NCBI GenBank assembly: GCA_014859105.1
Contig: JACUUX010000020.1
Location: 1-42,904, forward strand
Direction of reading: 5' to 3'
Length of the DNA: 42,904 nucleotides
From: Nitrospirota bacterium
GTDB taxonomy: Bacteria; Nitrospirota; Thermodesulfovibrionia; Thermodesulfovibrionales; SM23-35
Below the pieces are notes generated by a model. The model searched no databases, was not told the DNA's origin, and saw nothing but the letters and a program-made list of their open reading frames with translations. The translations under genes and the position numbers were made by a program. Each line of letters starts with the position of its first letter. The first letter of the stretch is position 1. Shown in pieces: positions 3,717 through 33,711 of this stretch.

Positions 3717-3782
3717 ACTGACACCGACACAGTTTCATCGTTCGTTACTGACACATGCACATTCACTGGCATCGTTTCACTG
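3717..3782. repeat. Hexamer tract between the companion gene and cas6; contains the cas6 stop
   Basis: Eleven 6-base units in register, including ACTGAC, ACCGAC, ACTGAC, ACATGC, ACATTC, ACTGGC and TCACTG, with degenerate units in between. The cas6 TGA (3763-3765) spans the ACATTC/ACTGGC boundary, the same hexamer phase as the cas1 stop in its own tract. Confidence 0.75.
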
Positions 3783-4425: not shown

Positions 4426-4431
4426 TACCCC

Positions 4432-7576: not shown

Positions 7577-7586
7577 AACATCTTCC

Positions 7587-8546: not shown

Positions 8547-8560
8547 TTCCTATCCCTCCT

Positions 8561-15412: not shown

Positions 15413-15417
15413 AGATT

Positions 15418-16317
15418 ATGAAACTTGGTTATATTGGTTTGGGCAAAATGGGTTCAAATATGGTGGAGAGACTCCTTGAAAAAGGGCATGAAGTTGTCGT
15501 TTTCGATAATAATGAAGATGCAGTAAAAAATATCTCAAGACATGGTGCAGAACCTGCATATTCATTACAAACTCTTGCTTCCGCCTTAATCACACCGCGA
15601 CTTATATGGATTATGGTTCCGCATCATGCTGTTGATTCAGTTATAAAAGGACTTTCACCTTTTATTCAGCCGGCTGATACATTAATCGATGGCGGGAATT
15701 CTCCTTATAAAGAAACAATAAAACGAAGCAGGGAATTGCAAGAGAAGGGAATAAACTTTTTAGATGCCGGAGTGAGTGGCGGACCATCTGGTGCGAGAAC
15801 AGGTGCATGCATAATGGTTGGCGGGAGAAAAGATATCTTCGAGAGATATGAAAAATTATTCAGCGCCCTTTCAGCCGGAGGCAGCTATGGATATATGGGC
15901 AAATCCGGAGCAGGCCATTTTGTTAAAATGGTCCATAATGGAATAGAATACGGGATGATGCAGGCAATTGCAGAGGGGTTCGCTTTGCTAAAAGCTTCTC
16001 CTTTTCAGCTAAATTTGACAGAAGTCGCTGAGATATACAATCACAGCAGCGTTATTGAATCGAGGCTGGTAGAATGGCTCCGGAAGGCATTCGAAGAGCA
16101 TGGTGAAGACCTTGATAATATCTCGGGCTCAGTCTCTCATACCGGCGAGGGATCATGGACAGTTGAGGCTGCAAAGGAATCGGGGATCCCGATGCCTGTC
16201 ATCGAAGGAGCCCTTCAGTTCAGGATTGATTCTCAAAAAAATCCGAGTTATACTGGTAGAATTCTTTCTGCACTGAGGAATCAGTTTGGAGGGCATGATG
16301 TTTTTAAGAGAGACTGA
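15418..16317 (+). CDS. gnd: 6-phosphogluconate dehydrogenase, decarboxylating (short YqeC-type)
   Basis: Oxidatively decarboxylates 6-phosphogluconate to ribulose-5-P. Rossmann motif GLGKMGSNM (8-16), substrate loop DAGVSGGPSGARTG, and catalytic Lys region GKSGAGHFVKMVHNGIEYGMM. About 299 residues, the short class found in many anaerobes and Gram-positives, often NAD-linked. Third gene of the operon. Together with zwf it forms the oxidative branch. Confidence 0.94.
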   Translation: MKLGYIGLGKMGSNMVERLLEKGHEVVVFDNNEDAVKNISRHGAEPAYSLQTLASALITPRLIWIMVPHHAVDSVIKGLSPFIQPADTLIDGGNSPYKETIKRSRELQEKGINFLDAGVSGGPSGARTGACIMVGGRKDIFERYEKLFSALSAGGSYGYMGKSGAGHFVKMVHNGIEYGMMQAIAEGFALLKASPFQLNLTEVAEIYNHSSVIESRLVEWLRKAFEEHGEDLDNISGSVSHTGEGSWTVEAAKESGIPMPVIEGALQFRIDSQKNPSYTGRILSALRNQFGGHDVFKRD

Positions 16318-16367
16318 CGTATGTTAATAAACAAATTCTTGAGTAACATCTGCCTCTTTCTGGTACA

Positions 16368-18197
16368 ATGGCAGACATAGAGAAATTAAAAAAACTTGCT
16401 AAACTGATCAGATACTACATCCTCTCTTCCACCACAGAGGCCAGTTCAGGTCATCCCACATCTTCTCTCTCGGCTACTGATTTAATGACAGTCCTGTTAT
16501 TTGACGGTATCTTCAGATTTGATGCTGACAACCCGGCTCATCCCAACAATGACCGGTTGATATTTTCAAAAGGTCATGCTTCACCACTTCTCTATGCACT
16601 CTGGGCTGCTGCTGGAAAAATTACCGAACGGGAACTCATGACCCTGAGAAAATTTGGCAGTCCGCTTGAAGGCCATCCTACGGTTGCCTTTCCGTATGTT
16701 GAAGCATCTACAGGTTCCCTCGGTCAAGGATTATCTATCGGCCTTGGAATGGCCCTGAATGCTAAATATATTGATAAGCTTCCTTACAGGACCTACGTAC
16801 TCCTCGGAGACAGTGAAATGTCAGAAGGTTCACAGTGGGAAGCTATACAGATAGCCGCATATTACAAGCTGGATAATCTTGTCGGGATCATTGATGTAAA
16901 CCGTCTCGGGCAACGTGGAGAGACGATGTACGGACATAACCTTAATGAGTACGAAAGGAGGATTTCTGCTTTTGGATGGGAGCCGATATTAATTGACGGC
17001 CATTCCTTCCCTGAACTACTTACTTCTTATGAAAAAGCTCTAAGTGTTAAGAAACCGGTTATGATAATCGCAAAAACAATTAAGGGAAAAGGGGTTTCAT
17101 TTCTTGAAGACAAAGATGGGTGGCACGGAAAGGCTCCGAAAAAAGAAGAATTAGAAAGGGCTTTGCAGGAATTGGGAGTTGTTGATAAGACAATTACAGG
17201 AGAAATAACCAGACCGGACGATACAAAACCAGTAAGAATTAATCCCGTAGCAGCGGGTGAAATACATTATCTTCCGGATAAGCCTGTCGCTACACGCAAG
17301 GCATATGGCAAGGCACTTGTCAGGATTTTTCCGTCTTTTCCGGATATGGTTGTTTTGGATGCCGAGGTATGCAATTCGACTTTTTCCGAGATATTCAAGG
17401 AAGCGCATCCAGAAAGATTTTTTGAGATGTACATTGCAGAACAGAATATGGTCGGCATGGCATTAGGTCTGTCACGCCGCGAAAAGATCCCCTTTATTTC
17501 CACTTTTGGCGCTTTCTTTACACGTGCTTTTGACCAGATCAGAATGAGCCGGTATTCTGATGCAAATATTAAATTTTGCGGCTCTCATGCAGGGGTATCA
17601 ATCGGGGAAGACGGCCCGTCCCAGATGGGGCTTGAGGATATAGCAATGTTCAGGGCTGTTATGAACAGCGTCGTTCTGTATCCAGGTGATGCAGTATCTA
17701 CTGAAAAATTAGTTGAAGAAGCTGCAAAGCATCACGGAATGGTTTATATACGCACGACCCGGATGGACACACCCATCATTTATGATGCACAAGAAAAATT
17801 TCATATCGGAGGCTGCAAGGTTTTGAGAAAAAATGACAAAGACCTTGTAGCTATTGTCTGTGCAGGAATAACTCTCTTTGAGGCTCTCAAGGCTTATGAG
17901 GAGCTTAAAAGAGATGGAATTTATGCCCGCATTATTGACCTTTACAGCATAAAGCCTCTTGATTCAAAAACACTTCAAGAGGCAGCGTATTCAACAAATG
18001 CGATCATAACTGTAGAAGACCATTTTGCTGAAGGTGGCATAGGAGAAGCTGTTATGAGTTGTCTCCACACTGTTGCTACACCTGTCTATTCGCTTGCAGT
18101 CAGAAAAATGCCCAAGAGCGGAAAACCGGAGGAGCTACTCGATTACGAAGGAATTTCCAAAGATGCAATTATCCAGAAGATAAAGGAGTTGATATGA
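16368..18197 (+). CDS. tkt: Transketolase
   Basis: Thiamine-diphosphate enzyme that moves two-carbon units between sugar phosphates. The N-terminal ThDP-binding region shows EASSGHPTSSLSATD, GHPT and the metal motif GDSEMSEGSQWEA with VDVNRLGQ. The central pyrimidine domain shows FFEMYIAEQNMVGMALGL (catalytic Glu) and a C-terminal domain follows. At 609 residues it is a single full-length polypeptide, in contrast to the split form of many anaerobes. There is no strong ribosome binding site before the ATG. Its stop overlaps the start of the transaldolase gene. Confidence 0.95.
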   Translation: MADIEKLKKLAKLIRYYILSSTTEASSGHPTSSLSATDLMTVLLFDGIFRFDADNPAHPNNDRLIFSKGHASPLLYALWAAAGKITERELMTLRKFGSPLEGHPTVAFPYVEASTGSLGQGLSIGLGMALNAKYIDKLPYRTYVLLGDSEMSEGSQWEAIQIAAYYKLDNLVGIIDVNRLGQRGETMYGHNLNEYERRISAFGWEPILIDGHSFPELLTSYEKALSVKKPVMIIAKTIKGKGVSFLEDKDGWHGKAPKKEELERALQELGVVDKTITGEITRPDDTKPVRINPVAAGEIHYLPDKPVATRKAYGKALVRIFPSFPDMVVLDAEVCNSTFSEIFKEAHPERFFEMYIAEQNMVGMALGLSRREKIPFISTFGAFFTRAFDQIRMSRYSDANIKFCGSHAGVSIGEDGPSQMGLEDIAMFRAVMNSVVLYPGDAVSTEKLVEEAAKHHGMVYIRTTRMDTPIIYDAQEKFHIGGCKVLRKNDKDLVAIVCAGITLFEALKAYEELKRDGIYARIIDLYSIKPLDSKTLQEAAYSTNAIITVEDHFAEGGIGEAVMSCLHTVATPVYSLAVRKMPKSGKPEELLDYEGISKDAIIQKIKELI

Positions 18198-19057
18198 GGC
18201 CAGAAAATCTCAAGACAAGAATTTTTTTAGACGGCGGTGATCCTGATGAAACGAAGAAGATTATCGGTTTGCTGGGATTTCTTGACGGACAGACAACAAA
18301 CCCAACACTTATATCGAAAAACCCCGCAGCCCGACAGCGCATTGAAGGAGGTGAAAAGTTCAGCAGGGAAGAAATCCTCGAATTTTATGGTCAGGTAGTA
18401 AAAGAAATCTCGGCTCTTATTCCTCAAGGTTCAATCTCGGTTGAGGTATACGCTGATACTTCTACAACATCTGAAGAGATGATAAAGCAGAGCAGGGAAA
18501 TGTTTTCATGGATACCTAATGCACATATTAAGTTTCCTATAACACATGAAGGACTGAAGGCAGCGGGAAAGTCAATAAAAGAGGGGTTACGTGTAAATAT
18601 GACGCTCTGTTTTACTCAGGAACAGGCTTCCGCTGTTTACGCTGCGACAGAAGGAGCGAAAAGGGGTGATGTCTTTGTTTCGCCTTTTGTAGGCCGGCTT
18701 GATGACAGAGGAGAAAACGGGATGGTTTTAATATCGAACATTATCAAAATGTATCAGAAAGGGGATGGCCATGTCGAGGTATTGACAGCCAGTGTGAGAA
18801 ACATTGACCATCTCCTGTATGCCCTGAAACTTGAATCAGACATTGTTACAGCACCTTTCAAGATATTAAAGGAGTGGGGTGAAAAGGGTCTTCTTATCCC
18901 TGGAAATGAGTATACTTATAACACTAAAGGCCTTAAGGTGATTCCTTTCAAAGACTTTGATCTTACTAAAAAGTGGCAGGATTATAATATTTATCATGAA
19001 CTGACTGACAGGGGAATAGAGAGTTTTTCATCAGACTGGAACGCTCTGATTCAATAA
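18194..19057 (+). CDS. tal: Transaldolase family protein
   Basis: Transfers dihydroxyacetone units between sugar phosphates. Start at the ATG at 18194, which overlaps the tkt stop (ATGA). A longer upstream frame would run far into tkt. The family motif FLDGQTTNPTLISKNP is present, and the Schiff-base lysine is expected in NAHIKFPITHEG, followed by VNMTLCFTQEQA and VSPFVGRLDD. 287 residues, between the small and classical transaldolase sizes. The zwf ATG overlaps its TAA. Confidence 0.88.
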   Translation: MRPENLKTRIFLDGGDPDETKKIIGLLGFLDGQTTNPTLISKNPAARQRIEGGEKFSREEILEFYGQVVKEISALIPQGSISVEVYADTSTTSEEMIKQSREMFSWIPNAHIKFPITHEGLKAAGKSIKEGLRVNMTLCFTQEQASAVYAATEGAKRGDVFVSPFVGRLDDRGENGMVLISNIIKMYQKGDGHVEVLTASVRNIDHLLYALKLESDIVTAPFKILKEWGEKGLLIPGNEYTYNTKGLKVIPFKDFDLTKKWQDYNIYHELTDRGIESFSSDWNALIQ

Positions 19058-20661
19058 TGGAAAATCTTAAAAATCTAAGTGAAGAAGAGCCACGTTATCA
19101 GATAATAGGCTCCTGCGAAATAGAGATTTCGAGACCCTTCTGTCTCGTCATCTTCGGTGCAGCAGGGGACCTTGCGAAAAGAAAACTTATCCCCGCGGTC
19201 TATCACCTTTATAAAGACGGTCTCCTGACTCAAAACTTTTTTATCTTCTGTACAGACATAATCGAAATGGATAGCAATCGATACCGGGAAATAATAAAAA
19301 AGTCTTTAAAGAATACCCTTACAAAATATTTCAATATCACCTCATGGGAGGGGTTTGCGACTAAACTCTATTATTCTTCTTTCGATTTTACCGTCCCTGA
19401 ACCGTACCTTAAATCTGTTAAAGAGCAACTGCCTGAATTGGAAAGGAAATATAAGACAGGTGGGAACCGTATCTTCTACCTGGCTGTACCTCCATCTGTT
19501 TTTGAGAGTGTAATTTATAATCTGGGTATTTCCGGACTTTCACGTGAAGATAAAGGCTATGCACATATTGTCATTGAAAAACCTTTCGGGCGGGACTATT
19601 CATCAGCAAAAAAATTAAATACTGTCCTGAGAGAATATTTCGAGGAAAAACAGATCTTTCGTATAGACCATTATGTTGCAAAGGAAACGGTACAGAACAT
19701 GCTCATGTTCCGCTTTGCAAACTCAATATTTGAGCCTTTATGGAACAGGAGATATATAGATCATATCCAGATAACTGTTGCAGAAACCCTGGGTATTGAA
19801 CACAGGGCAGGTTATTATGAAGAAGCAGGTGTTATCAGGGATATGTTTCAAAGTCATATGTTTCAACTCCTTTCTGTAACAGCCATGGAACCACCCGTGG
19901 CATTTAAAGCCGACAGGGTGCGGGATGAAAAGATCAAGGTGTTACATTCTATAAGGCCGTTCCCTTTGGATTCAATAAATGAATATGTGGTAATCGGACA
20001 ATATGGAAGAGGAACAATTCAGGGTAACCCTGTTGTCTCATACCGGGAAGAGCCAGGCGTTTCGCCTGAATCCACTACACCGACCTTTGCCGCAATGAAG
20101 GTTTATATAGACAACTGGAGATGGAACGGTGTGCCATTTTATCTCCGTTCAGGGAAGAGACTGCCTGTAAGAAAGACTGAAATTTCAATTCACTTCAAAC
20201 AGGTGCCTCACATGATGTTCTCGAAAGTCATGGATGAGAACATAGAGCCAAATATACTGGTTTTCAGATTACAACCTGATGAAGGAGTCAGTCTTACTTT
20301 CCAGACAAAAAAACCCGGAACCCGAGTCTGCCTCAATCCGGTACTCATGGATTTTTCCTATCAGAAAGACGTCTCACTCGATGCATATGAATGGGTTCTT
20401 CTTGACTGTATGCTCGGGGACCAGATGTTATTCTTGAGACAGGAGGGTGTGGAAGAAACATGGACGATACTCACTCCTGTGATAGAGAAGCTGGATGCGA
20501 CCACCGAACCTGGAATATTTCCGAATTACGCTGCAGGCTCATCAGGCCCTGACGAGGCAAATTTATTGATAGAGAGAGAAGGACGATTATGGAAATCTTT
20601 AATTACTGTCAAAGAACATGAACGAACACGTATTTCCAGACTTAGAGGCTATAAGAAATAA
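19057..20661 (+). CDS. zwf: Glucose-6-phosphate 1-dehydrogenase
   Basis: Oxidises glucose-6-P to 6-phosphogluconolactone with NAD(P)+. Dinucleotide motif FGAAGDLAKRKLIPA near residue 33, the substrate/active-site motif RIDHYVAKETVQN and the EKPFGRD loop. 534 residues, slightly longer than usual because of an extra N-terminal segment of about 25 residues. It starts in a TAATG overlap with tal. No gene for 6-phosphogluconolactonase is found in the operon, so that step is done elsewhere or spontaneously. Confidence 0.95.
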   Translation: MENLKNLSEEEPRYQIIGSCEIEISRPFCLVIFGAAGDLAKRKLIPAVYHLYKDGLLTQNFFIFCTDIIEMDSNRYREIIKKSLKNTLTKYFNITSWEGFATKLYYSSFDFTVPEPYLKSVKEQLPELERKYKTGGNRIFYLAVPPSVFESVIYNLGISGLSREDKGYAHIVIEKPFGRDYSSAKKLNTVLREYFEEKQIFRIDHYVAKETVQNMLMFRFANSIFEPLWNRRYIDHIQITVAETLGIEHRAGYYEEAGVIRDMFQSHMFQLLSVTAMEPPVAFKADRVRDEKIKVLHSIRPFPLDSINEYVVIGQYGRGTIQGNPVVSYREEPGVSPESTTPTFAAMKVYIDNWRWNGVPFYLRSGKRLPVRKTEISIHFKQVPHMMFSKVMDENIEPNILVFRLQPDEGVSLTFQTKKPGTRVCLNPVLMDFSYQKDVSLDAYEWVLLDCMLGDQMLFLRQEGVEETWTILTPVIEKLDATTEPGIFPNYAAGSSGPDEANLLIEREGRLWKSLITVKEHERTRISRLRGYKK

Positions 20662-22828: not shown

Positions 22829-23719
22829 CTATATTCTTAACCCTTCCTGATATTTATCGAATAAGGAAATGATCTTTTCGGCGGAATCTTTCTTTAGTGT
22901 CCCTTTCTCAAGTGCTACTTTAACTGTGTACCTTCCAAGTTCGGAATAAAGTATTATTAAATCCTGCCTATCCTTTGGTATTGCCTTCAGGTGATCTTCG
23001 ATAATATTTGAATCTCCTCTTGCAATGGGTCCTGTAAGAGCTGATGGTATTCCAAGAGTTTCTATATTCTTTACTGTCCCCTTTATCAAAGGCATAAGAG
23101 CATTAAGAGATTCTTTTCTGTTAATCCCTGCTGCTTCATGGAAATCCAGGCCTAATCCAACAGTCGCCACAAGAAAATTTGAAACCACAGCGGCTCCCGC
23201 ATGATACAGCGGTTTTTTATCTACTTTTAAAGTTATTTCCCTCCCGTCAAAGGCCTTAACTATCTCTCTTGCTACTGACAGTGCAGCTTCATCTCCCTCT
23301 ATACAGAAGTAAGAACCCGGAAGGTTTTTCACAGCTTCTCTGACATCAGGAAGGCTCTGAAGCGGATGTAAAGAGGCAACATTTGCACCAGCTCTTTTTG
23401 CAGAAACTAAAATCTCAGAGGATAATGCACCGCTTGTATGAAATACAATCGCTCCTGTATTGAACCCTCCGCCAGAAGCAATACTGTTGCATACTTCCTC
23501 AATTGCGTTATCAGAAGTTGTTAAAAATACTATATCTGCTTTTCTGGCAGTCGTTATTAAATCTATTGAGGCATCCCCGTCTCCAATGAAATCCCTTGCC
23601 TTATTAGCTGATTCAGCTGTCCTGCTCCCTATTCCAGCAATTAAATAGCCACTTTTTTTTAGAAGATACCCAATTGCGGTTCCAACAGCTCCAGCACCAA
23701 TAATAGAAACCCTGTGCAT
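22829..23719 (-). CDS. Rossmann-fold DUF2520 protein
   Basis: 296 residues. N-terminal NAD(P)-binding fold (VSIIGAGAVGTAIGYLLKKSGY) and a C-terminal helical DUF2520 domain resembling 6-phosphogluconate/ketopantoate-type dehydrogenases. Motifs such as LHPLQSLPDV and AGAAVVSNFLV are typical of the family. The substrate is unknown. It lies directly upstream of purD with no gap and 51 bases after the first metF gene. Confidence 0.82.
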   Translation of the reverse strand: MHRVSIIGAGAVGTAIGYLLKKSGYLIAGIGSRTAESANKARDFIGDGDASIDLITTARKADIVFLTTSDNAIEEVCNSIASGGGFNTGAIVFHTSGALSSEILVSAKRAGANVASLHPLQSLPDVREAVKNLPGSYFCIEGDEAALSVAREIVKAFDGREITLKVDKKPLYHAGAAVVSNFLVATVGLGLDFHEAAGINRKESLNALMPLIKGTVKNIETLGIPSALTGPIARGDSNIIEDHLKAIPKDRQDLIILYSELGRYTVKVALEKGTLKKDSAEKIISLFDKYQEGLRI

Positions 23720-23770: not shown

Positions 23771-24649
23771 CTATAATTCAGCGTCTTCCAGGACCAAGGG
23801 AATCCTTTTCTCCCATCCAATAGCCATTATATGAACTCCCTGACACATATCTTTCATTCCCTTGATTAATCTGGCAGCTATCTCAACGCTGGTTTTTACC
23901 TTATCCTTTGTCACTTCCATTTCTTTAATTAGAGGCTCAGGAACAAATACGCCGGCAACATTTTTATTCATAAACCTTGCCATACCGGCTGATTTTAATA
24001 AGATTATTCCTCCCAGGATCTCAGTCTTAAACCCCTCTACCCGCTTCATAAATCTTTCGAAGAGATCCAGGTCAAAAATTCCCTGAGTTTGAAAGAATTC
24101 CGCACCTGCCTCTATTTTTTTTTCCATTTTTATAATCTGCATTTCTAAAGCTGCCTCGGTATCTGCTCCCGGATTTACCACTGCACCTGGAAGGAAATCT
24201 GGAGCACCTTTGAGCTGATTCCCTGCCATGTCAACCCCTTCATTCAGCCTCTTGATTACCTTTAAAAGGCTTACAGAATCTAAATCAAATACAGGCATTG
24301 ACTGAGGATGATCTCCCAATGTTGGATGGTCTCCTGTCAAGGACAGCACATTCCTGATACCCAAAACCCATGCACTTAACAGGTCTGATTGTAGCGCCAG
24401 CCTGTTTCTATCTCGACAGGTCATCTGTAAGATAGGATCAATTCCATGATCTTTCAGGAGGTGACAAACTGCCATGGAACCCAAACGCATAACAGAACTC
24501 TGAAGATCGGTAACATTAATAGCATCTACCTTTCCTTTGATAAGCTCTGCATCTTCTAACAATTCATCTGTCTCGGTTCCCTTACCCGGCCCTATCTCTG
24601 CCGTGATAAGGAACTTACCAGAATGTAAAGCCTCCCTGAATCCCATCAC
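23771..24649 (-). CDS. metF: Methylene-tetrahydrofolate reductase catalytic subunit, copy 1
   Basis: Flavoprotein that reduces 5,10-methylene-THF to 5-methyl-THF. TIM-barrel motifs: LITAEIGPGKG, NVTDLQSS, QMTCRDRNRLALQSDLL, NVLSLTGDHP, AEFFQTQGIFD and ILGGIILLKSAGMARFMN. GTG at 24649 (6 bases after GGAG) or ATG at 24646 are both plausible starts. It immediately follows metV, and the MetF-MetV pair is the form used in many Wood-Ljungdahl anaerobes. A second pair at 29730-31301 is clearly paralogous. The upstream flavin/iron-sulfur oxidoreductase is the likely electron input. Confidence 0.92.
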   Translation of the reverse strand: MMGFREALHSGKFLITAEIGPGKGTETDELLEDAELIKGKVDAINVTDLQSSVMRLGSMAVCHLLKDHGIDPILQMTCRDRNRLALQSDLLSAWVLGIRNVLSLTGDHPTLGDHPQSMPVFDLDSVSLLKVIKRLNEGVDMAGNQLKGAPDFLPGAVVNPGADTEAALEMQIIKMEKKIEAGAEFFQTQGIFDLDLFERFMKRVEGFKTEILGGIILLKSAGMARFMNKNVAGVFVPEPLIKEMEVTKDKVKTSVEIAARLIKGMKDMCQGVHIMAIGWEKRIPLVLEDAEL

Positions 24650-24650
24650 A

Positions 24651-25328
24651 TCAAACTCCTGTTGGCTCCTTCTTTAGTTTTAAATCTTCTCTCACCAGCT
24701 TTCTGGGATGAACAGGCCATGCCTTTGGCTGGGACGATCCCATTAAAAGATGTAGTTGATTTAGTTTCATTAAGCGGGTGTAAATTTGTTGCCATACGCA
24801 GGGGTTATCCTTTGAGACCTCACATCTTCCGCCCTGTGATCCACCACAGGGCCCATAAATGAGCCTCTTTGCACACCTTGCTACCGGACATATCCCGCCT
24901 GTCCTCCAGAGGATGCAGTCGCCGCAGGCTGCACAAAGCTCAATCCATGTACCACGTCCATCTGAAGCTCCGATAAAAAGGGTATTCATTGCAGGCAAAA
25001 CAGGGATATTTTCAAGGTCCTCGGCAATGCTCTGTACACCAGCACCACAACCCATTGAAAGAATTGCCTCATATTGAGATGCCTCATCCTTCATCTGTTC
25101 AATAAATTTTAGCTCGCATTGCCTGGGTATTGTTCGTTCTCCTATAACAGCGTCTTCTCCTTCCATCTTCTTTACTGTTCGAAGGGCGGATGCGAGTAAT
25201 TCAACCTGTTTTTTCCCGCCACTGAGACAGACGGTAACACAAGCACCACATCCAACAATCAGTACTTTTCTGTATTTTTTTACCATCTCTTTGATTTCTG
25301 CCAAAGGCTTAATTTCGGCAACAATCAT
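24651..25328 (-). CDS. metV: MetV, zinc/iron-sulfur partner of MetF, copy 1
   Basis: 225 residues with an N-terminal cysteine set (C27, C30, C34 in VGCGACVTVC) and a C-terminal block LCAACGDCILWRTGG, then GPCGGSQGGRCEVSKDNPC. This matches the MTHFR-C/MetV family, which binds an iron-sulfur cluster and links MetF to electron donors. Ribosome binding site GAAGGTG before the ATG. It lies 53 bases after the flavin oxidoreductase gene and directly before metF. The cysteine positions are identical to those of MetV copy 2. Confidence 0.9.
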   Translation of the reverse strand: MIVAEIKPLAEIKEMVKKYRKVLIVGCGACVTVCLSGGKKQVELLASALRTVKKMEGEDAVIGERTIPRQCELKFIEQMKDEASQYEAILSMGCGAGVQSIAEDLENIPVLPAMNTLFIGASDGRGTWIELCAACGDCILWRTGGICPVARCAKRLIYGPCGGSQGGRCEVSKDNPCVWQQIYTRLMKLNQLHLLMGSSQPKAWPVHPRKLVREDLKLKKEPTGV

Positions 25329-25381
25329 ACAATCACCTTCTTTTATTTATACTTTAATAGTTATTCTTTTAACCGAAATCA

Positions 25382-27334
25382 CTATTTTTCTTTATCCTCA
25401 TATACAATCTTCAGCCGTTCAGCATCTATACCGATGTCTTTTAACATCTTTTTTGCTCTTTCGACATGTCTAAGTATCCATTCATCACAGCCTTTGAACC
25501 GACATTCATCCTTATTCTCACATGTATATAATTCAACACCCTTGGATCCCTCTTCGAAAGGATGGATAAGCTGGTAAACGTCAATACGTGCCATGCACGG
25601 CTTCCCGACTCCATATTTACTGCTTTCTTTTGCTTCAACTGATTTCCCTGCGGCTTCATATTGACAATAGAATTTTATGGTAAAATCCCCGGGTTTCTCC
25701 TTTTTCGCATTCTCAACAGCGCCTTTAAGTTTTTTACGGCTTGTCTCTTTTGTCTCAAGACTAACCTCGATTGCCGAAGCCGGACATTCTGCTGCACAGA
25801 TTCCACAAACCTGACACTGACTTATATCAATTTTAGCCTTTTCTTCGCCTGCCACAGGCACTCCATAAGGACATACAAGAACACAGTTAAAACATGCCAC
25901 GCAGTCATCCGATATAACTGCCCCTGCACCGCAGTTCAGACAGCGCTGAGCTTCCATCGTAGCCTGCTCCCTGTTATACCCAAGATTTACTTCTTCAAAA
26001 CTCTTAATTCGCTCCTTGACGGGAAGTGTTGGCATCTTAGGTCTCATAGCCTTTACAATGAGGTTAACTATTTTCTCGTCAAGAGGTCTCAAAACCGCAG
26101 GTTCCTCGATCTCTTTAGGTGGTAGATTACGCAGATAGCGGTGTATTGCATCAGCCGCTCTTTTCCCGGACGCAATTGCGTGAATCACGCTCAGAGGACC
26201 ACTGACAACGTCCCCGCCTGCAAAAACACCTCTCAGGTTCGTAGTGCCTGTATCATCTTTCACAACAATTGTACCGCTCTTTCCAGATATCAATTCGACT
26301 TCTTTAATCGTGTCGGCTTTAGGGTTATACCCAATCGCCAGAATTGCCGCCTCAGCTTCTATCTCAAACTCAGACCCTTCAAGTGGTACTGGCTTACTGC
26401 GTCTTCCCTCACCGCTTAGCCGCATCTTAATACATTTCACCTTCTTAACACTTCCCCTGCCGCTAAATTCTACAGGGGCGGTCAGATACATAAACTTTAC
26501 CCCTTCATGTTCTGCCTCCTTCACCTCTGCTTTACCGGCTGGCATCTCACCTGCTGTCCTGCGATACATAATTGTCACATCCTCGGAACCCAGTCTGATA
26601 CATGTTCTGGCCGCATCCACTGCCGTATGTCCGCCGCCGATTACTACAACCTTATTGCCGAGGTAGGGCCTTTGCCCTTGGCTTACCTGCTTGAGAAATT
26701 CAACTGCCGTGATGATGCCTGGTAGTTCTACTCCCTTGCATTTAGGGAAAAGGCTCCTTTCGCTCCCCAGAGCTAAGAAGACTGCCTGATATTCCTTCAT
26801 CAGGTCTTCAATCGTAAAGTCTCTACCAAGTGCCATTCCTGTTCTTGCTTCAACACCTAACGATAGGATACAATTGATATCTTCCCTTACAATGTGTCTT
26901 GGAAGCCTGTATTCAGGCACACCTCTACTCAGCATCCCGCCAAGCTCGTTCTCTGCGTCGAAGACAACAACTTTGTACCCGAGCAATGCTAAGTCATGGG
27001 CAGCTGTAAGACCGGACGGCCCACCACCTACTACTGCAATTTTTTCAGTATAATACAGACCAGGTCTTCTGAGTTGCGGCAAAGCTCTTGTCTCATCTGC
27101 CGCAAATCGCTTTAGAGACGCAATGGCAATAGGTTCATCAATCTGTCCACGTCTACATGCAGACTCGCACGCCCGCGTACATATCCTCCCGCAGATTGAA
27201 GGGAATGGGTTTACCTGCCGGATAATTTTTATGGCAGTCTCTATATCGCCCCTGGCGATAGCGGATACATAACCTCGAACATCTGTATGTATAGGGCATG
27301 CTGCCTGACAAGGGGGCATTGCGCTGATACTCAT
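25382..27334 (-). CDS. FAD/NAD(P) oxidoreductase (GltD-like) with ferredoxin and MvhD-like domains
   Basis: About 650 residues, from the ATG at 27334 (AAGGAG ten bases upstream; a GTG at 27343 is too close to that site). N-terminal Cys-rich 4Fe-4S domain (C9, C13, C48, C52, C56, C60), FAD site GGGPSG near 103, NAD(P) site VVIGGGHTAVDAAR and FAD-closing motif VFAGGDVVSGP. A ferredoxin domain follows (CVACFNCVLVCP, CQVCGICAAECP), then a C-terminal MvhD-like tail (YTCENKDECRFKGCDEW). The first part resembles the glutamate synthase small subunit / NfnB, but no glutamate synthase is present. It leads the metV-metF operon, so electron delivery to MetF from NAD(P)H is inferred. Confidence 0.88.
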   Translation of the reverse strand: MSISAMPPCQAACPIHTDVRGYVSAIARGDIETAIKIIRQVNPFPSICGRICTRACESACRRGQIDEPIAIASLKRFAADETRALPQLRRPGLYYTEKIAVVGGGPSGLTAAHDLALLGYKVVVFDAENELGGMLSRGVPEYRLPRHIVREDINCILSLGVEARTGMALGRDFTIEDLMKEYQAVFLALGSERSLFPKCKGVELPGIITAVEFLKQVSQGQRPYLGNKVVVIGGGHTAVDAARTCIRLGSEDVTIMYRRTAGEMPAGKAEVKEAEHEGVKFMYLTAPVEFSGRGSVKKVKCIKMRLSGEGRRSKPVPLEGSEFEIEAEAAILAIGYNPKADTIKEVELISGKSGTIVVKDDTGTTNLRGVFAGGDVVSGPLSVIHAIASGKRAADAIHRYLRNLPPKEIEEPAVLRPLDEKIVNLIVKAMRPKMPTLPVKERIKSFEEVNLGYNREQATMEAQRCLNCGAGAVISDDCVACFNCVLVCPYGVPVAGEEKAKIDISQCQVCGICAAECPASAIEVSLETKETSRKKLKGAVENAKKEKPGDFTIKFYCQYEAAGKSVEAKESSKYGVGKPCMARIDVYQLIHPFEEGSKGVELYTCENKDECRFKGCDEWILRHVERAKKMLKDIGIDAERLKIVYEDKEK

Positions 27335-27423
27335 TAAAATCACACTCCTTTTTAGAAAAATTATTTAAATTCCTGCCTTTATTTCTGTGGCATGGACTGT
27401 ATTATATATGAGCATCGTTACAG

Positions 27424-27535
27424 ATAATTCTCGTTACCATTTTAAAGTCACTTCTGGCAATCGCTGCAACATAACTGCGTACATCAGTATATACAGGGCA
27501 TGCTGCCTGACAAGGGGTGCGGTTTTATCGGTCAT
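27424..27535 (-). pseudogene. Decayed duplicate of the oxidoreductase N-terminus
   Basis: On the minus strand one frame reads PCQAACPVYTDVRSYVAAIARSD, nearly identical to the start of the neighbouring oxidoreductase (PCQAACPIHTDVRGYVSAIARGD). The ATG is out of frame by a one-base loss, and homology ends after about 35 codons. It lies about 90 bases upstream of the intact gene. A short duplicate left by recombination, or the stump of a second copy, are both possible. Confidence 0.75.
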
Positions 27536-27553: not shown

Positions 27554-28603
27554 TTATTTTACACGTAGTAGAATAGTAAATGTAGTGCCCTCCCCTACCT
27601 TACTTTCTACATTGATAGCGCCACTGTGGGCATCTACAACGCTTTTAACAATAGAAAGGCCCAGGCCTGTACCATTAATATTTTTTGTTATCTCTGATCT
27701 TACCCTGTAGAATTTTTCAAAAATTCGTGGAATATCCTTGTCTTCAACACCTAATCCTGTATCGGAAACTTCTATCTGAACGTTCTGTGCATTCTGGGTC
27801 ATCTCTACACTTACCTGCCCTTCTGAGGGAGTGTACTTAATAGCATTACTGATCAGGTTAATAAACATGGCTTCCACACTGCTTTTGTTCCCAATAATCA
27901 AAGGAATGTGATCTTCTATTTTTACATGAATGGCGATATCCTTGTCTTGAGCCTGGGGTTGCATTAACTCGACTGTTCTCTGTAAAATCTCAGCGAGATT
28001 CAGGCTTTCTATCTGTGTAAGATATCCTCCCTCTTCGATATAGCAGACATCAAGGATATCATGTATCAGATCAACCATGCCCTTGATCTTGGTTCTGACC
28101 TTTTGAAGCAAATCCCTTTGTTTCTCATTGAACTCTCCCACCATCCCATCCAGAAGAATAGATGTCTGAAGTAAAGTGGAGCTCAATGGGGATTTTAATT
28201 GATGAGAAACCATGGATAAGAAATTAGCCTTGATCTTATCTATAGCACTTAACTGTGCGACATCATGGAGCACGGTTACGGATCCAATAAGTAATCCATT
28301 TGTATCTCTGACAGGGTTTACATGTACCCTGAGCATTGTATTACCTGAATTCATGAGGCATACCTCTTCCGTGCGATAGGGCACATCAAGCCTCAATATC
28401 TTGGTTATAAGTTTAACCAGCAATTCATTCCTAATGTGATCTTGAACTGGCTGATTCAAGGCATAACTTCCCTTTATTCCAAGCATTGCTTCAGCCTGTT
28501 GGTTATAAAGGACTATCTTACCCTGTTTATCTGTAACCAATATCCCATCTGACAGACTATCAATTACGGCATTTAATGATTCCTTCATTGCTCTATAAGG
28601 CAT
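27554..28603 (-). CDS. Cytoplasmic PAS-domain sensor histidine kinase
   Basis: 349 residues without membrane segments. An N-terminal PAS domain (residues about 10-115, DGILVTDKQGKIVLYNQQAE), the HisKA phospho-acceptor histidine H134 in MVSHQLKSPL, then HATPase with NLISNAIKYTPSEG, DTGLGVEDKD and GTGLGLSIVKS. Start ATG at 28603 with GGGAG nearby. It follows two single-domain receivers in the same direction and would phosphorylate one or both. The signal sensed is unknown; a cofactor-bound PAS domain responding to redox state would fit the neighbours. Confidence 0.92.
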   Translation of the reverse strand: MPYRAMKESLNAVIDSLSDGILVTDKQGKIVLYNQQAEAMLGIKGSYALNQPVQDHIRNELLVKLITKILRLDVPYRTEEVCLMNSGNTMLRVHVNPVRDTNGLLIGSVTVLHDVAQLSAIDKIKANFLSMVSHQLKSPLSSTLLQTSILLDGMVGEFNEKQRDLLQKVRTKIKGMVDLIHDILDVCYIEEGGYLTQIESLNLAEILQRTVELMQPQAQDKDIAIHVKIEDHIPLIIGNKSSVEAMFINLISNAIKYTPSEGQVSVEMTQNAQNVQIEVSDTGLGVEDKDIPRIFEKFYRVRSEITKNINGTGLGLSIVKSVVDAHSGAINVESKVGEGTTFTILLRVK

Positions 28604-28828
28604 ATATCTCCCGTATTAAAGCAGGTTAAGCTTTAACTTGATAATTCCCCGTACCTTGCAACAGGTCTTCGGAAATCATTCCGGCTATTTTCTGCGACCT
28701 TACCGTATTTTATTAATTTTTTCGTAGCAGTAAGAATTTTTATAGATAACCACACCCTTACAGGGAGTTGTTCTATCTGAATTTAAAAAACCCGATGCTT
28801 TTCTATGGGACATTATGGTAAATTAATT

Positions 28829-29227
28829 TTAATTCCCCGTAGAAATTCTCAACAGATTTTCTACTCTTTCTACCAGCTCTTTAGGTTCTACAGGTTTGGG
28901 AATATAATCGTCAGCCTCGATCCTCATGCCCATTTCCTTGGTATATTCTGTTGTAGGTATGGCCTCTCCAACTGCTGTCAATAGCAGAATGGGGATGTGA
29001 CCGTATTCAGGGTCAGCTTTAAGCTTAGCACCAACTTGATAGCCATCCATTCCAGGCATCATGACATCTAAAATAATTAAATTCGGCTTTTCTGCCTGGA
29101 CTTTTCTCAACCCTTCTTGCCCGTCATACGCAACAGTCACTTCATAAGATTTGTTCTCTAAAATAAGCTTGGTTGCTTCGGCAAAATCTACATCATCTTC
29201 TATAAGTAAAATCCTTTTTTTCTCCAT
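28829..29227 (-). CDS. Single-domain response regulator 1
   Basis: CheY-like receiver of about 133 residues. Acidic pair EDD at 10-12, phospho-acceptor D54 in LIILDVMMPGMDG, and conserved Thr and Lys further on (LLTAVGE and PKPVEP). The start is the ATG at 29227 preceded by GGGGTGG. An upstream reading would overlap the next receiver gene. No DNA-binding domain, so the output is by protein contact or phosphorelay. Confidence 0.9.
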   Translation of the reverse strand: MEKKRILLIEDDVDFAEATKLILENKSYEVTVAYDGQEGLRKVQAEKPNLIILDVMMPGMDGYQVGAKLKADPEYGHIPILLLTAVGEAIPTTEYTKEMGMRIEADDYIPKPVEPKELVERVENLLRISTGN

Positions 29228-29246
29228 TTCCACCCCACTTAAGTTA

Positions 29247-29648
29247 TCAAGCCTCACCTGCTTTCTGGAGAATCTTCTTCACACGTTCCAATAAGATATT
29301 ATGTTCGATGGGTTTTTCTATATAATCATCAACGTCAAGTTGTAGTCCTGTTTCTAATTCATATCGCCGCTGACTGGCCTTTTCCCTCACACTGCTAAGT
29401 ATGATGATAGGTATATGTGCATACTTAGCACGTCGAGGATCTTTCAACTCCTTGCATACCTCGAATCCATCCATCCTGGGCATAAGAAGATCCAGAATCA
29501 TTAAATCTGGTTTTTCCTCTTTAAGCTTTGCCAATCCATCCAGACCATCTCGAGCAGTGACTACCTCATAGCCATTGGCCTCAAGGATAATGCTGATAGC
29601 CTCAAGGATATCGGGATCATCATCAACAACTAATATTTTAGCACTCAT
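29247..29648 (-). CDS. Single-domain response regulator 2
   Basis: CheY-like receiver of about 133 residues. DDD at 9-11, phospho-acceptor D53 in LMILDLLMPRMDG, ILSSVRE, and the lysine in IEKPIEH. The start is the ATG at 29648 with GGGGGA upstream; a TTG at 29660 is less likely. It is clearly paralogous to the receiver 19 bases downstream. Both have an extended C-terminal loop (the ELETGLQLDVDDYIEKP type) typical of receivers paired with soluble kinases. Confidence 0.9.
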   Translation of the reverse strand: MSAKILVVDDDPDILEAISIILEANGYEVVTARDGLDGLAKLKEEKPDLMILDLLMPRMDGFEVCKELKDPRRAKYAHIPIIILSSVREKASQRRYELETGLQLDVDDYIEKPIEHNILLERVKKILQKAGEA

Positions 29649-29729
29649 CGTATCCCCCAAAAAGATCTAAATTTCCCTTTCAAGCCTGATCCTTAATTTC
29701 GTATGTATTATAATCATTCTTCAATATTA

Positions 29730-30647
29730 CTACATTATCGGCCTTGGTAGTAAGCCGGCCCTCTCAACGATGACAGGCACTATATCTTCCCAGGCCACAG
29801 CCATAATATGTATGCCATGGATACCTTCTACCTCTTTGAGTTGATCGATAATTTCCAGAGATATCTTCACACCTTCTTCCTTGACATTCTTTGCCCCCTC
29901 CATACGGGTTACTATCTCATCCGGCACGCTGATTCCTGAGACATTATCCCTCATGTAGCGAGCCATCCCTACAGATTTTATCGGTATTATACCTGCAAGA
30001 ATGTGAACCTTTTTATCCAGCCCCTGATCTCTAACCATCTCCATCCATCTCTTAAACTTGTTAGTATCAAATACAGCCTGTGTTTGAATAAAATCTACTC
30101 CGGCCATTACCTTCTTAGCCAGCCTTATTACCCTATATTCAAATGGGTCAGCAAATGGATTTTTAGCTGCACCAATAAAAAGAGGCATTTCTCCGGAAAT
30201 CTCTTCACCGCATATAAATTTTTTTTCATCCCTCATATTCTTGAGGGTCTGAACGAGCTGAATCGAATCGATATCATATACACCTTTTGCATCAGGATGG
30301 TTTCCAAATCTTTGATGGTCACCCGAAAGACAAAGTACGTTTCTAATTCCAAGGGCAACTGCCCCCAGGATATCACTCTGAATTGCGATCCGATTTCGGT
30401 CCCTGACTACCATCTGCATTACAGGATCAATACCCATCTCCTTCAGGATGACACAGCCACTCAAACTTGACATACGTACGATGGCCGTCTGATTATCCGT
30501 TACGTTCATTGCGTCACAATATAATTTAAGAAGTTCGCCTTTTCTACGTATAACTGTTGCAGAGGTACCTTTTGGGGGACCCACTTCAGCAGTTACAGCG
30601 AAATAGCCCCCTTCAAGAACCTTCTCCAGATTGCTTCCTGTTTTCAT
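29730..30647 (-). CDS. metF: Methylene-tetrahydrofolate reductase catalytic subunit, copy 2
   Basis: 305 residues with the same barrel motifs as copy 1: FAVTAEVGPPKG, NVTDNQTA, QMVVRDRNRIAIQSDIL, NVLCLSGDHQ, VDFIQTQAVFD and ILAGIIPIKSVGMARYM. The two copies are diverged, so this is an old duplication or independent acquisition. It lies 6 bases after metV copy 2 and is downstream of the hydrogenase subunit genes in one leftward run. Electron supply from the hydrogenase is therefore a reasonable inference. Confidence 0.92.
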   Translation of the reverse strand: MKTGSNLEKVLEGGYFAVTAEVGPPKGTSATVIRRKGELLKLYCDAMNVTDNQTAIVRMSSLSGCVILKEMGIDPVMQMVVRDRNRIAIQSDILGAVALGIRNVLCLSGDHQRFGNHPDAKGVYDIDSIQLVQTLKNMRDEKKFICGEEISGEMPLFIGAAKNPFADPFEYRVIRLAKKVMAGVDFIQTQAVFDTNKFKRWMEMVRDQGLDKKVHILAGIIPIKSVGMARYMRDNVSGISVPDEIVTRMEGAKNVKEEGVKISLEIIDQLKEVEGIHGIHIMAVAWEDIVPVIVERAGLLPRPIM

Positions 30648-30653
30648 AATACA

Positions 30654-31301
30654 TCAGCTCCTTATAGTTGGCGGCCCACCTGTCAAGCTTTTGTCCCAGT
30701 TTTTAGTAGGCATGACCTCTTGTAGTTTATAGAGACATCCAATTTTGGAAAGACGCTCGATAATGAGCTGCCATGCACAGGGCATGTCGGTTGAAATTTC
30801 ACACTTTCCACCCTGGGATCCGCCACAAGGACCATTTAGCAATTGTTTGGCACATCTGGCTATTGGGCAGATACCACCAGTAAATTCCAGAACGCAATCG
30901 CCGCACTCAAGGCACCTTTCTGCCTGCTTCCACTCGGCATGACCGCCCCCAGAAGAAATGGTATTGCAGCCTGGATGAACAACCTTGTATACGGAAGAGG
31001 CTACTGTCTGAACCCCCGCTCCGCAGCACATCACCAATACAGATTCTGCAGATTCAATAGCATCTGCTTGGGCTGATAACTTCATCCTCGTTAAAGCCTC
31101 ATTACATACCATATCAATAAGGCATATGCCACTTACAGTCTTTCCCCCGGTTTCCAGCCTTTTTTTAATATCCAAAACCTGCCGCTCACCCCCGCTTTCA
31201 CACCCATCAGCACAACCCTTGCAACCAACTAAAAAAATAACCTTGTCTTTGTTTACATATCTCCATATCTCTTCAAAAGGTTTCTGTTCAGAAATAAGCA
31301 T
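30654..31301 (-). CDS. metV: MetV, zinc/iron-sulfur partner of MetF, copy 2
   Basis: 215 residues with cysteines C27, C30 and C34 (VGCKGCADGC), a VMCCGAGVQT segment, CLECGDCVLEFTGGICP and GPCGGSQGGKCEISTDMPC. Same family and layout as copy 1. It begins 30 bases after the hydrogenase large subunit stop, so co-transcription with the hydrogenase is likely. Confidence 0.9.
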   Translation of the reverse strand: MLISEQKPFEEIWRYVNKDKVIFLVGCKGCADGCESGGERQVLDIKKRLETGGKTVSGICLIDMVCNEALTRMKLSAQADAIESAESVLVMCCGAGVQTVASSVYKVVHPGCNTISSGGGHAEWKQAERCLECGDCVLEFTGGICPIARCAKQLLNGPCGGSQGGKCEISTDMPCAWQLIIERLSKIGCLYKLQEVMPTKNWDKSLTGGPPTIRS

Positions 31302-31331
31302 AATCTAAATTACCACCTTCCTTTGTGTCCT

Positions 31332-32825
31332 TTAATGTACAGCACAGGCCAGACAAGGGTCAAACGACCGCACTATTCGCACTATCTCAAAGGGATTAGA
31401 TTCATCTTTTATCTTTGTATTCATAAGCGCTTGTTCCGCCGGTCCAGGCTGCCCTTTATCATCCCGGGGTGAAAAATTCCAGGTACTCGGTACCACACAC
31501 TGATAATTAGCAATCTTCTTATTCTTTATCTCTATCCAATGTCCCAGGGCTCCTCTCGCTGCTTCAACAAGCCCCATACCCGTAGACTCATCGGGAATAA
31601 TATAATTAACGTACGATGACTCTCCTGGTTTTAGCTGAAGTAGCCACTCAGGCATGGAATCAGCAATGAATTTAGTTTCCAAAGCCCGGGCAATGTGGCG
31701 GCCAAGAACAGAAAAGAATATATCGGGTTCGGCCTTAAACTTAGAAAGAACAGAATCAACCAGCTCCTTGATCCTTAGATCACCAACAGCGTAAGTTGTC
31801 ATCACTCGGGCAAGAGGACCTACCTCATAAACCCTGCCTCCGTAACGTGGTGCTTTTATCCAGGAATAAGCACCTTCTTTCCCGAATTCTGGACTTATTT
31901 TGCCTGAATCTGATACATACCACGAATATCTGATTTCCTCTGAGATTTGGGCTACATCAAGTTCTTTGAATTTAAGGTCTGCAGAAACAGTCCCCTGTCT
32001 GAATAATCTCTTCCGCTTAGCAAGATCGGGTTCATTACCATCCAGGTCATAGCTTCCATAAGAAAGCAGATTTCTGCAACCAATTCCAATCTCAAAATAG
32101 TCCCTGTAGACCTCGGCGATAGCCAAAACATCAGGTATGTATACTCTGTCTATAAAGTCTCTGAGTTCGTTCAGTCTCCAGAGGAAAGAAATTATTTTGT
32201 CCGTGGTGGGTACCATAGTTAACCCTCCAGGCACGACGCTCATATTATGGGGCATCTTACCGCCGAAGATTGAAAGCATCGCCTGGGCCTTGCGCCGCAT
32301 AGCCAAAGCTTCTATGTAATGGGCTACTACAATCTGGGTTATCTCATCCGGAAGGCGATAATCACCCTCATACCTGGGGAAAAATGGCCCCAGTTCTCCC
32401 CTCTCCGCAAACTTTTTTATAGAAGACAATACGACATCTGAACCATCGTATCTTGCCACTTTGGTTATATCTAAATAGTCCAGGGCAGACAGATGATAAA
32501 AATGCAGGATATGATCAGCAATGTGAGCAGAACCCAAGATCAAATTACGCATAATCCTTCCGTTGTCCGGTATCTTGTCTGATATGCCAAAGGCGTCATC
32601 GAGGGTCAAGGTAGATGCTACAGAATGGCTTGTGGGGCATACCCCACAGATGCGCTGGGTTATCCTCTGAGCATCACGTGGATCCCTGCCCTGAAGAATA
32701 TACTCTATACCCCGAAAAAGCGTACCCGCACTTCTGGCCTCTTTTATATTCCCATTTTCAACTGTTGTCTCGATCTTTAAATGCCCTTCAATACGCGTCA
32801 CTGGATCGATAATGATCTTATTCAA
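31332..32825 (-). CDS. NiFe hydrogenase large subunit without C-terminal extension
   Basis: Binds the NiFe(CN)2CO centre. L1 motif DPVTRIEGHL (7-16) and RICGVCPTSH (58-67) supply the first cysteine pair; the final residues DPCLACAVH (489-497) supply the second pair (C491, C494). The ORF stops right after that histidine, so there is no peptide for a maturation protease to remove. Start taken as TTG at 32825, because a full AAGGAGGT lies 6 bases upstream; the reading from 32846 would place that site inside the gene. It overlaps the small subunit stop. By motif it resembles group 1, but it pairs with a cytoplasmic small subunit. Confidence 0.9.
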   Translation of the reverse strand: MNKIIIDPVTRIEGHLKIETTVENGNIKEARSAGTLFRGIEYILQGRDPRDAQRITQRICGVCPTSHSVASTLTLDDAFGISDKIPDNGRIMRNLILGSAHIADHILHFYHLSALDYLDITKVARYDGSDVVLSSIKKFAERGELGPFFPRYEGDYRLPDEITQIVVAHYIEALAMRRKAQAMLSIFGGKMPHNMSVVPGGLTMVPTTDKIISFLWRLNELRDFIDRVYIPDVLAIAEVYRDYFEIGIGCRNLLSYGSYDLDGNEPDLAKRKRLFRQGTVSADLKFKELDVAQISEEIRYSWYVSDSGKISPEFGKEGAYSWIKAPRYGGRVYEVGPLARVMTTYAVGDLRIKELVDSVLSKFKAEPDIFFSVLGRHIARALETKFIADSMPEWLLQLKPGESSYVNYIIPDESTGMGLVEAARGALGHWIEIKNKKIANYQCVVPSTWNFSPRDDKGQPGPAEQALMNTKIKDESNPFEIVRIVRSFDPCLACAVH

Positions 32826-33711
32826 TTTCGGACCTCCTTCCAACAACCGGCAAGACTTCCAGGATCATCTTTTCATAGAGTGGAGATACTAAATCAGGGA
32901 AACCGGGCTCACAACAGCCTATGCATGGAGAGCCAGCGTTAACACACCAATTTACTCCACCATTCCAGAGCCTTATCGGGCAATCTGCATATGTTACCGG
33001 CCCTTTACATCCCAGTTCATATAAGCAGCCAGGCTCATTGAAATTTTTGGCAAATTTGCCCTCTTCAAAATCGGCTCGACGGGGGCAAATCTCATGGATC
33101 AATTTCCCATAGAAGGCCTTTGGCCGTTTATATTCATCCAAATCCTCTGCTCTTGGCAGGCCATTATAAAGGACGCTGGCTATAGTGCCAACAAACCAGT
33201 CAGGATGGGGAGGACATCCGGGTATATTTATTAAAGGAGTAGTGATGGAGCGAGATTTGAAAAATTCAGCTACTCCCGTACAATGACCGGGATTGCCATA
33301 AGCTGCGGCTATTCCGCCGAAGGCGGCACAGGTACCTAAAGCGATTACTGCCATAGCTTCCTTCCCTAAAAAATCCACCGATGAAAGCATGGATATAGGC
33401 TCTCCATCTTTTTCTCCAATGTATCCATAAGCTCCGCCCTCAGCCATAGGTATAGCTCCCTCAACCACTAAGATGTAACTTCCATTTCTGTTTTGCCGCG
33501 TTTTTTCCATTTCCTCGATTACTGCCTCCCCTGCTCCTGCCATTATAGTAGGATGAAATCTAAGATTAAGGTGCTTTCCAGGAAGTACTTCATCAATAAG
33601 CATGTTTTTAATGGTTGGACTTTCAGAATTCAGAATAGAAACAGAACATCCAGTACAAGCAGCACATTGTAGCCAAATTATTGGATATTCCTCAACTTTT
33701 TTATGTTCCAC
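32818..33711 (-). CDS. NiFe hydrogenase small subunit, cytoplasmic type
   Basis: 297 residues carrying iron-sulfur clusters that pass electrons from the NiFe centre. Proximal-cluster cysteines are visible in LQCAACTGCSVS (C16, C19, C22), GTCAAFGG and IPGCPPHPDW. Distal and medial cluster cysteines are in CLYELGCKGP, DCPIRLWNGG and NAGSPCIGCCEPGFPD. There is no Tat signal and no C-terminal membrane anchor, so the enzyme should stay in the cytoplasm. GTG start at 33711 with GGAGG upstream. Followed by the large subunit and metV-metF. The physiological partner is not shown directly. Confidence 0.92.
   Translation of the reverse strand: MEHKKVEEYPIIWLQCAACTGCSVSILNSESPTIKNMLIDEVLPGKHLNLRFHPTIMAGAGEAVIEEMEKTRQNRNGSYILVVEGAIPMAEGGAYGYIGEKDGEPISMLSSVDFLGKEAMAVIALGTCAAFGGIAAAYGNPGHCTGVAEFFKSRSITTPLINIPGCPPHPDWFVGTIASVLYNGLPRAEDLDEYKRPKAFYGKLIHEICPRRADFEEGKFAKNFNEPGCLYELGCKGPVTYADCPIRLWNGGVNWCVNAGSPCIGCCEPGFPDLVSPLYEKMILEVLPVVGRRSEIE

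Follow-up and report, generated by a model that had tools for sequence, protein, structure and literature searches.

A GltD-ferredoxin-MvhD fusion encoded with MetV and MetF in a Nitrospirota bacterium: a probable HdrABC-free methylene-tetrahydrofolate reductase with NADPH-type input

We analysed a stretch of 42,904 nt from a Nitrospirota bacterium, contig JACUUX010000020.1 of assembly GCA_014859105.1 (hereafter the window), in which three consecutive genes on the minus strand encode a GltD-ferredoxin-MvhD fusion protein, the MetV subunit and MetF, the methylene-tetrahydrofolate (methylene-THF) reductase (Table 1). An earlier note on this DNA had described one polypeptide joining an NAD(P)H/FAD module, two 4Fe-4S motifs and an MvhD-like tail, followed by metV and metF, and Pfam recovers all of these parts, with Fer4_20 (6.3e-25, residues 10-86), Pyr_redox_2 (1.4e-34, 101-393), two 4Fe-4S motifs at 480-525 and FlpD/MvhD (3.6e-11, 578-647) in the fusion. 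Residue numbers refer throughout to the open reading frame (ORF) of 653 residues that begins with GTG. The ATG at 27334, taken as the start in the earlier note, is nevertheless the likelier one, because AAGGAG lies immediately 5' of it and the orthologue in locus L006 starts with the same residues. The fusion stop and the metV start are 53 bp apart, and the end of metV is overlapped by metF.

Table 1 Features of the fusion-metV-metF operon in the window (positions on the contig; residues of the 653-residue ORF)
Feature	Position	Strand	Basis
GltD-ferredoxin-MvhD fusion gene	25382..27343	-	ORF; 653 aa from GTG, 650 aa from likely ATG 27334
metV (Zn/4Fe-4S subunit)	24651..25328	-	Pfam DUF5981
metF (methylene-THF reductase)	23771..24649	-	Pfam MTHFR, 1.6e-40
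Fer4_20 N-terminal module; C12, C16, C51, C55, C59, C63, K78	27086..27316	-	Pfam residues 10-86; conservation
GltD-type FAD/NAD(P)H domain; second Rossmann motif GGGHTA, then YRR	26165..27043	-	Pfam residues 101-393
Segment with invariant C468 and C471, like the NfnL N-terminus	25919..26038	-	hmmsearch to 4ylf_B; cysteines 58/58
Two 4Fe-4S motifs: C481, C484, C487, C491; C510, C513, C516, C520	25784..25903	-	Pfam; 58/58
MvhD domain; C560, C583, C608, C614 likely 2Fe-2S ligands	25400..25681	-	Pfam, profile, fold, conservation
Frameshifted remnant, start of another fusion (histidine-kinase-linked type)	27420..27518	-	DNA comparison with other fusion starts

The whole fusion was modelled with a predicted local distance difference test score (pLDDT) of 88.5 and a predicted TM-score of 0.88. 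Its top fold matches are NfnA of NfnABC (9bov_A; Z 42.1, root-mean-square deviation 4.3 over 512 residues) and StnC (8oh5_C; Z 40.8, deviation 4.0 over 514 residues), followed by NfnL; matches to DPD that cover residues 8-653 (deviation about 9) were left out of this comparison. In NCBIfam the top match is the generic PRK12771, below its cut-off (497.8 vs 516 bits), and the HdrA2 match is confined to the ferredoxin and MvhD region (residues 474-648). HdrA as the source of the flavin domain was ruled out, the domain being GltD by NCBIfam and by fold. The segment behind the FAD domain, which contains C468 and C471, aligns at positions 31-77 of the fusion profile with residues 2-48 of NfnL 4ylf_B (hmmsearch). 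It is permuted in the fusion, because its NfnL counterpart precedes the FAD domain while that of the fusion follows it, and the same order, with CxxC after the FAD domain, recurs in the large subunits of the Nfn and Stn enzymes (9n5u_A, second match). This segment probably completes a second 4Fe-4S cluster. Both of its cysteines, as well as each of the eight ferredoxin-type cysteines, are present in 58/58 aligned fusions.

The earlier note had allowed for a bifurcating enzyme, and on this point the ligands speak differently. In StnC the FAD-adjacent cluster is held by three cysteines together with Lys170 or Cys114, and its authors conclude that StnC has lost bifurcation, whereas NfnB has a glutamate at the corresponding ligand position (PMC10482914). 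K78 of the fusion aligns with the StnC lysine, and the aligned fusions have lysine there in 56 of 58 rows, with one glutamate (L062) and one gap. Because the residue is lysine as in the non-bifurcating StnC, and not the glutamate of NfnB, bifurcation at the GltD FAD is disfavoured; moreover, Pfam and NCBIfam find no NfnA-like or HdrA-like second flavin domain in the fusion, metV or metF. The pattern argues against bifurcation at the GltD flavin, and this part of the earlier proposal is not supported. We accordingly regard it as unlikely that the enzyme bifurcates or confurcates, splitting the electrons of NADPH (or NADH) between methylene-THF and ferredoxin with the branch at the GltD FAD or the MetF flavin and the ferredoxin-type clusters as exit. 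Such a scheme would agree with the bifurcation proposed for the Moorella complex (PMC9430772, PMC8760232), with the bifurcating GltD relative NfnB and with the full conservation of the ferredoxin-type cysteines, and the drop from NADPH to methylene-THF would presumably pay for it; but it has to contend with K78, with an operon of three genes that offers neither an NfnA-like partner nor an HdrA flavin domain, and with cluster motifs that lie in a single chain between FAD and MvhD.

At the other end of the chain, the tail is a real MvhD domain by profile and by fold. A C-terminal profile made from 12 fusions matches the MvhD chains of solved complexes (9sfi_K 2.9e-14, 7bkb_F 3.6e-13, 5odc_D 3.6e-13), and the tail modelled alone (pLDDT 85) matches four PDB chains at E<=1e-3, every one of them MvhD, with Z 10.7-11.1 over 95-101 residues as compared to 7.6 for the next fold. 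The MvhD-like C-terminus suspected earlier is thereby confirmed by two routes, and the outcome that the note gave as refuting, a C-terminus unlike MvhD, is not what is observed. Its cysteines are retained among the 58 aligned fusions as follows: C560 57/58, C583 54/58, C608 57/58 and C614 58/58. In Sporomusa ovata, MvhD pulled down MetF, HdrA and HdrB (PMC9430772), and because MetF was contained in that pulldown, the tail is a sound candidate for the contact to MetVF.

The nucleotide specificity can be approached through two motifs. The window fusion and its clade carry YRR after the second Rossmann strand, as in the aligned NADPH enzymes, and the second Rossmann motif of the window protein, GGGHTA, fits the GxGxxA rule reported for NADP binding (PMC12054007). 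The window protein looks NADPH-type from these residues, which makes NAD(P)H, already named in the earlier note, a likely electron source. The sister clade has CLE instead of YRR and keeps GxGxxA; because this motif is present there too, NADH use in the CLE clade is rated as probable only.

We then consider how widely the arrangement occurs. The comparison set comprised 101 related genomes, 20 of the window's own family and 81 others of the order. A full-length fusion is present in 13 of the 20 (split over two contigs in G010), with partial forms in G003 and G017 and none in five, and in 7 of the 81; G066 and G073 give partial matches that extend to the tail. A wider scan of named genomes yielded at least 80 loci and a tally of at least 62 non-redundant fusions from at least nine phyla by record labels, most records being metagenome bins whose labels may err: Nitrospirota, Nitrospinota (a metagenome-assembled genome), Thermodesulfobacteriota, Actinomycetota, Chloroflexota, Armatimonadota, Bacillota, Planctomycetota and Spirochaetota. 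Neighbourhoods were counted for fusions with at least 700 bp downstream (n=56 among the matches listed, six others being too short). Among these, metV lies within 1.5 kb of the fusion in 53/56 and metF within 5 kb in 52/56, and FolD is found within 0.9 kb upstream in 21/55 of the matches listed; at L062 the contig stops after metV. The adjacency of fusion and metVF is more than chance.

Related loci distribute the same parts over several genes. L063 and L089 encode the fusion parts as two genes, GltD-ferredoxin and MvhD (FlpD 3.8e-30 and 3.9e-25), followed by metV and metF, while L105, L110, L114, L120, L126 and L130 encode GltD within giant proteins of 1417-1507 aa, with MvhD, metV and metF as separate genes behind them; L123 combines a giant GltD-holding protein with metV and metF. 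These giant-protein loci are similar to the arrangement in Moorella, where GltD is part of HdrA (PMC9430772). At L046 (3576-5024) the fusion ends after the GltD part (483 aa, without ferredoxin and MvhD) and is still located in a metV2-metF2 cluster. It is highly improbable that the fusion is an ordinary GltD-like oxidoreductase with another acceptor, brought beside metVF by operon drift. The sub-threshold match to a generic family and three fusions without metV nearby would be in keeping with drift, but not the conservation of the neighbourhood in nine or more phyla as labelled in the records, nor a tail that MetVF complexes are known to use as an electron-transfer subunit, nor split forms that retain all four genes together.

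Given the order of the genes, the domains and their folds, the conserved ligands and the co-occurrence with metVF, we consider it fairly probable that the three proteins form a compact, HdrABC-free and non-bifurcating methylene-THF reductase, (GltD-ferredoxin-MvhD):MetV:MetF, which acts as a linear wire from NADPH. On this basis we infer the complex, which cofactors are bound and by which ligands, the path and direction of the electrons and the use of NADPH. NADPH would reduce the FAD of the GltD module, and the FAD would release electrons singly to the neighbouring 4Fe-4S cluster (C16, C55, C59 and K78). Electrons would pass from there to a second 4Fe-4S cluster (C12, C63 and the displaced C468/C471), then over the two ferredoxin-type clusters, about four 4Fe-4S clusters in all, to the 2Fe-2S cluster of MvhD, and finally through the MetV clusters to the MetF flavin, where methylene-THF would be converted to methyl-THF. 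The pairing of cysteines into clusters presumably follows the DPD/NfnL scheme. The potential of NADPH is near -320 mV. Methylene-THF is placed at -200 mV (PMC9430772). Because of this difference the linear wire would run downhill to methyl-THF, and such a straight wire would work mainly in the reductive direction.

Several points weigh against this proposal. The structure models are of single chains only, and complex and activity are deduced from sequence and fold. The tail matches the FlpD model of Pfam at profile positions 30-98 of 123, so that the N-terminal portion of the model is not covered. The role of lysine as a ligand is taken over from StnC, and coordination may differ in the fusion, because the counterpart of StnC Cys114 is valine in the window protein while C51 is mostly conserved (54/58). 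Electrons could also pass between free ferredoxin and the two ferredoxin-type clusters, and the CLE clade, judged by its motif, may use NADH, in which case the family would have no single fixed cofactor. Finally, the fusions of L071, L082 and L084 have neither metV nor metF in about 5.9 kb downstream, and that of L082 also lacks C608; these three may serve another partner.

The history of the operon bears on how tightly the fusion is bound to its MetVF pair. In a swap test we compared trees of 14 loci by approximately unbiased (AU) tests, the groups having been named after earlier trees had been inspected. The window fusion groups with folD-linked fusions, and its constraint to the histidine-kinase-linked set is rejected (p-AU 2.9e-94). 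The window MetF and MetV, on the other hand, group with the histidine-kinase-linked set, and the folD-linked constraint is rejected for both (p-AU 6.5e-30 for MetF, 0.005 for MetV). The gap that separates the fusion from the histidine kinase gene contains the frameshifted remnant of a further fusion start (Table 1), whose DNA scores 133, 126 and 109 against the kinase-linked starts of L058, L039 and L040, 92 against L035 and 87 against the window's own fusion, with 38 for the best shuffled sequence. With fusion and metVF of different lineages and a remnant of a kinase-linked start beside them, the history is explained most simply if a related fusion took the place of the resident one and metVF stayed, the remnant being an apparent scar. 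Four actinobacterial CLE-type fusions are accompanied by a MetF that falls, in the MetF tree, with the type of the other clade. Together with the window swap, this mismatch suggests that the module works with different MetVF pairs, and the input module appears exchangeable among them. The GltD tree (94/96 rows; L025 and L027 dropped) requires 9 changes for the fusions, places the giant HdrA-like proteins of L116 and L120 inside the CLE clade, and gives weak support (83) for joining both fusion clades; a single origin of the fusion is no more than possible on this tree.

A second MetVF pair is encoded upstream of the fusion, where 28829-33711 holds two receivers, metF2, metV2 and a NiFeSe-like hydrogenase; the latter lies 4.0-6.4 kb from the fusion in the same gene direction. 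The hydrogenase subunits stand directly before metV2 and metF2 (29730-33711) and have no evident signal peptide, the small subunit matching its model from position 35. Gene order in L040 is as in the window, and L042 has genes for HdrC, HdrB and HdrA in place of the hydrogenase. This arrangement suggests that metV2-metF2 is driven by H2, so that one MetVF of the window would have an NADPH-type input and the other probably an H2 input. The operon had been described as paralogous to the unit next door, which holds for MetV and MetF (MetF 44% identical) but not for the fusion, which has no counterpart there. MvhD is the subunit contacted by MvhAG or formate dehydrogenase in Hdr complexes (PMC6085437), and with a hydrogenase close by, the tail might instead dock a hydrogenase, either this NiFe enzyme or an MvhAG-like pair elsewhere in the genome, in a hub linking H2, NADP(H) and MetVF. 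We hold this to be quite unlikely, as the hydrogenase query matched beside the fusion in the window and L040 only, and the neighbouring enzyme is NiFeSe-like, not MvhA-like, and has its own metV2-metF2. The genome contains two metF genes only (E<=0.001), both in the window, and an acetyl-CoA synthase gene; FlpD matches three times and CCG five times genome-wide, in neighbourhoods labelled by eye as Qmo, Mvh, Tmc/Hme and GlcF-like.

Other genes of the window are noted here for completeness. A histidine kinase and two receivers (27554-29660) separate metF2 from the fusion and are kept in L040, L042 and L058. A kinase/receiver set follows metF2 in L046, and receivers or kinases lie 3' of metF in L075, L076, L086, L105, L126 and L130; these genes may encode a regulator that serves methyl-THF formation specifically. 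Downstream of the window metF (22829-23719) are a DUF2520-like Rossmann protein, named by eye, and purD; a DUF2520-like gene and purD lie between metV and metF in L034, L036, L037 and L038. The window that encodes the NADPH-type fusion also has a row of genes for the pentose phosphate pathway, which forms NADPH, at 14313-20661 (rpe, rpiB, gnd, tkt, tal and zwf, by eye), and CRISPR-Cas genes (cas1, cas3, cas4 and effector genes, also by eye) occupy 306-10023.

The electron carrier of MetVF is described as an open question which decides the energy gain of acetogens at this step (PMC8760232), and we extend the same energy question to CO2-fixing sulfate reducers. The answer in the window seems to be built into one chain, in which an NADPH-type flavoprotein is joined to the MetF-contacting subunit, and this fused chain probably does what in other anaerobes takes a larger complex of several subunits. 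We predict a simple, non-bifurcating NADPH enzyme, found in many uncultured lineages and small enough for expression. Whether it stands for a fifth, widespread class of methylene-THF reductase, with MetVF and an exchangeable NAD(P)H chain of GltD, ferredoxin and MvhD in place of HdrABC, and with NADPH-type and probable NADH-type lineages, is in our judgement an evenly balanced matter; in these Nitrospirota, MetVF would then be a socket that takes the fusion, HdrCBA (L042) or a NiFe hydrogenase (window, L040).

Published methylene-THF reductases are of types I-IV, namely MetF alone, MetVF, MetVF-RnfC2 and MetVF-HdrCBA-MvhD (PMC8760232), and the composition in the window fits none of the four. 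In the full-text literature that we searched, with subscription papers mostly outside that search, no GltD-ferredoxin-MvhD protein with MetVF is described. The core pair is of the MetVF type, an MTHFR-family MetF adjoining a DUF5981 MetV. The Type III enzyme of Acetobacterium woodii resembles the proposed one in combining MetVF with one pyridine-nucleotide-oxidising subunit in a soluble, non-bifurcating enzyme (PMC8760232), but RnfC2 belongs to a different protein family from the GltD-ferredoxin-MvhD chain, and Pfam gives no RnfC-like match in the three genes.

The closest relatives of the fusion itself, by best fold and sequence match, are StnC and NfnA of StnABC and NfnABC (8OH5, 9BOV, 9N5U), which share its FAD-proximal lysine, YRR and the CxxC segment after the FAD domain. 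There, however, electrons from the module reach a HydBC-like bifurcating unit by way of a NuoG-like part, while the fusion leads to MvhD and MetVF, and StnC Cys114 is replaced by valine in the window fusion. NfnL/NfnB (4YLF, 5JCA) has the GltD fold, the N-terminal 4Fe-4S module and the NADPH site in common with it, and differs in its glutamate ligand, its bifurcating FAD and its CxxC segment, which is N-terminal there and post-FAD in the fusion. In the type III HdrA with inserted GltD (PMC12054007), GltD serves to bring electrons from NAD(P)H into an Hdr-type chain, but the HdrA core is retained, and the main text of that paper does not name MetF.

With the Type IV, Hdr-type enzymes of Moorella thermoacetica and Sporomusa ovata, the window shares MetV, MetF and an MvhD domain, here as a fused tail, in one operon, and probably the input from pyridine nucleotide. 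The window operon lacks HdrB, HdrC and the TrxR-like flavin core of HdrA, its FAD domain being GltD (NCBIfam), and it holds GltD, ferredoxin and MvhD in a single chain of about 650 residues. HdrC is absent among the window ORFs by inspection, and a whole-genome search with the CCG family of HdrB has no match on the window contig (C79) but another on C107, so that an HdrB elsewhere is possible. The HdrA-free MetVF arrangement proposed in the earlier note is thus borne out by operon content; its statement that GltD replaces HdrA stands as to the missing HdrA core, but the HdrA of the Moorella methylene-THF reductase complex already contains a GltD domain (PMC9430772). Because Moorella HdrA holds GltD, and in view of the giant-protein and split-gene loci, the fusion can be read as an Hdr-type input arm that is joined to MvhD and has no HdrA core.

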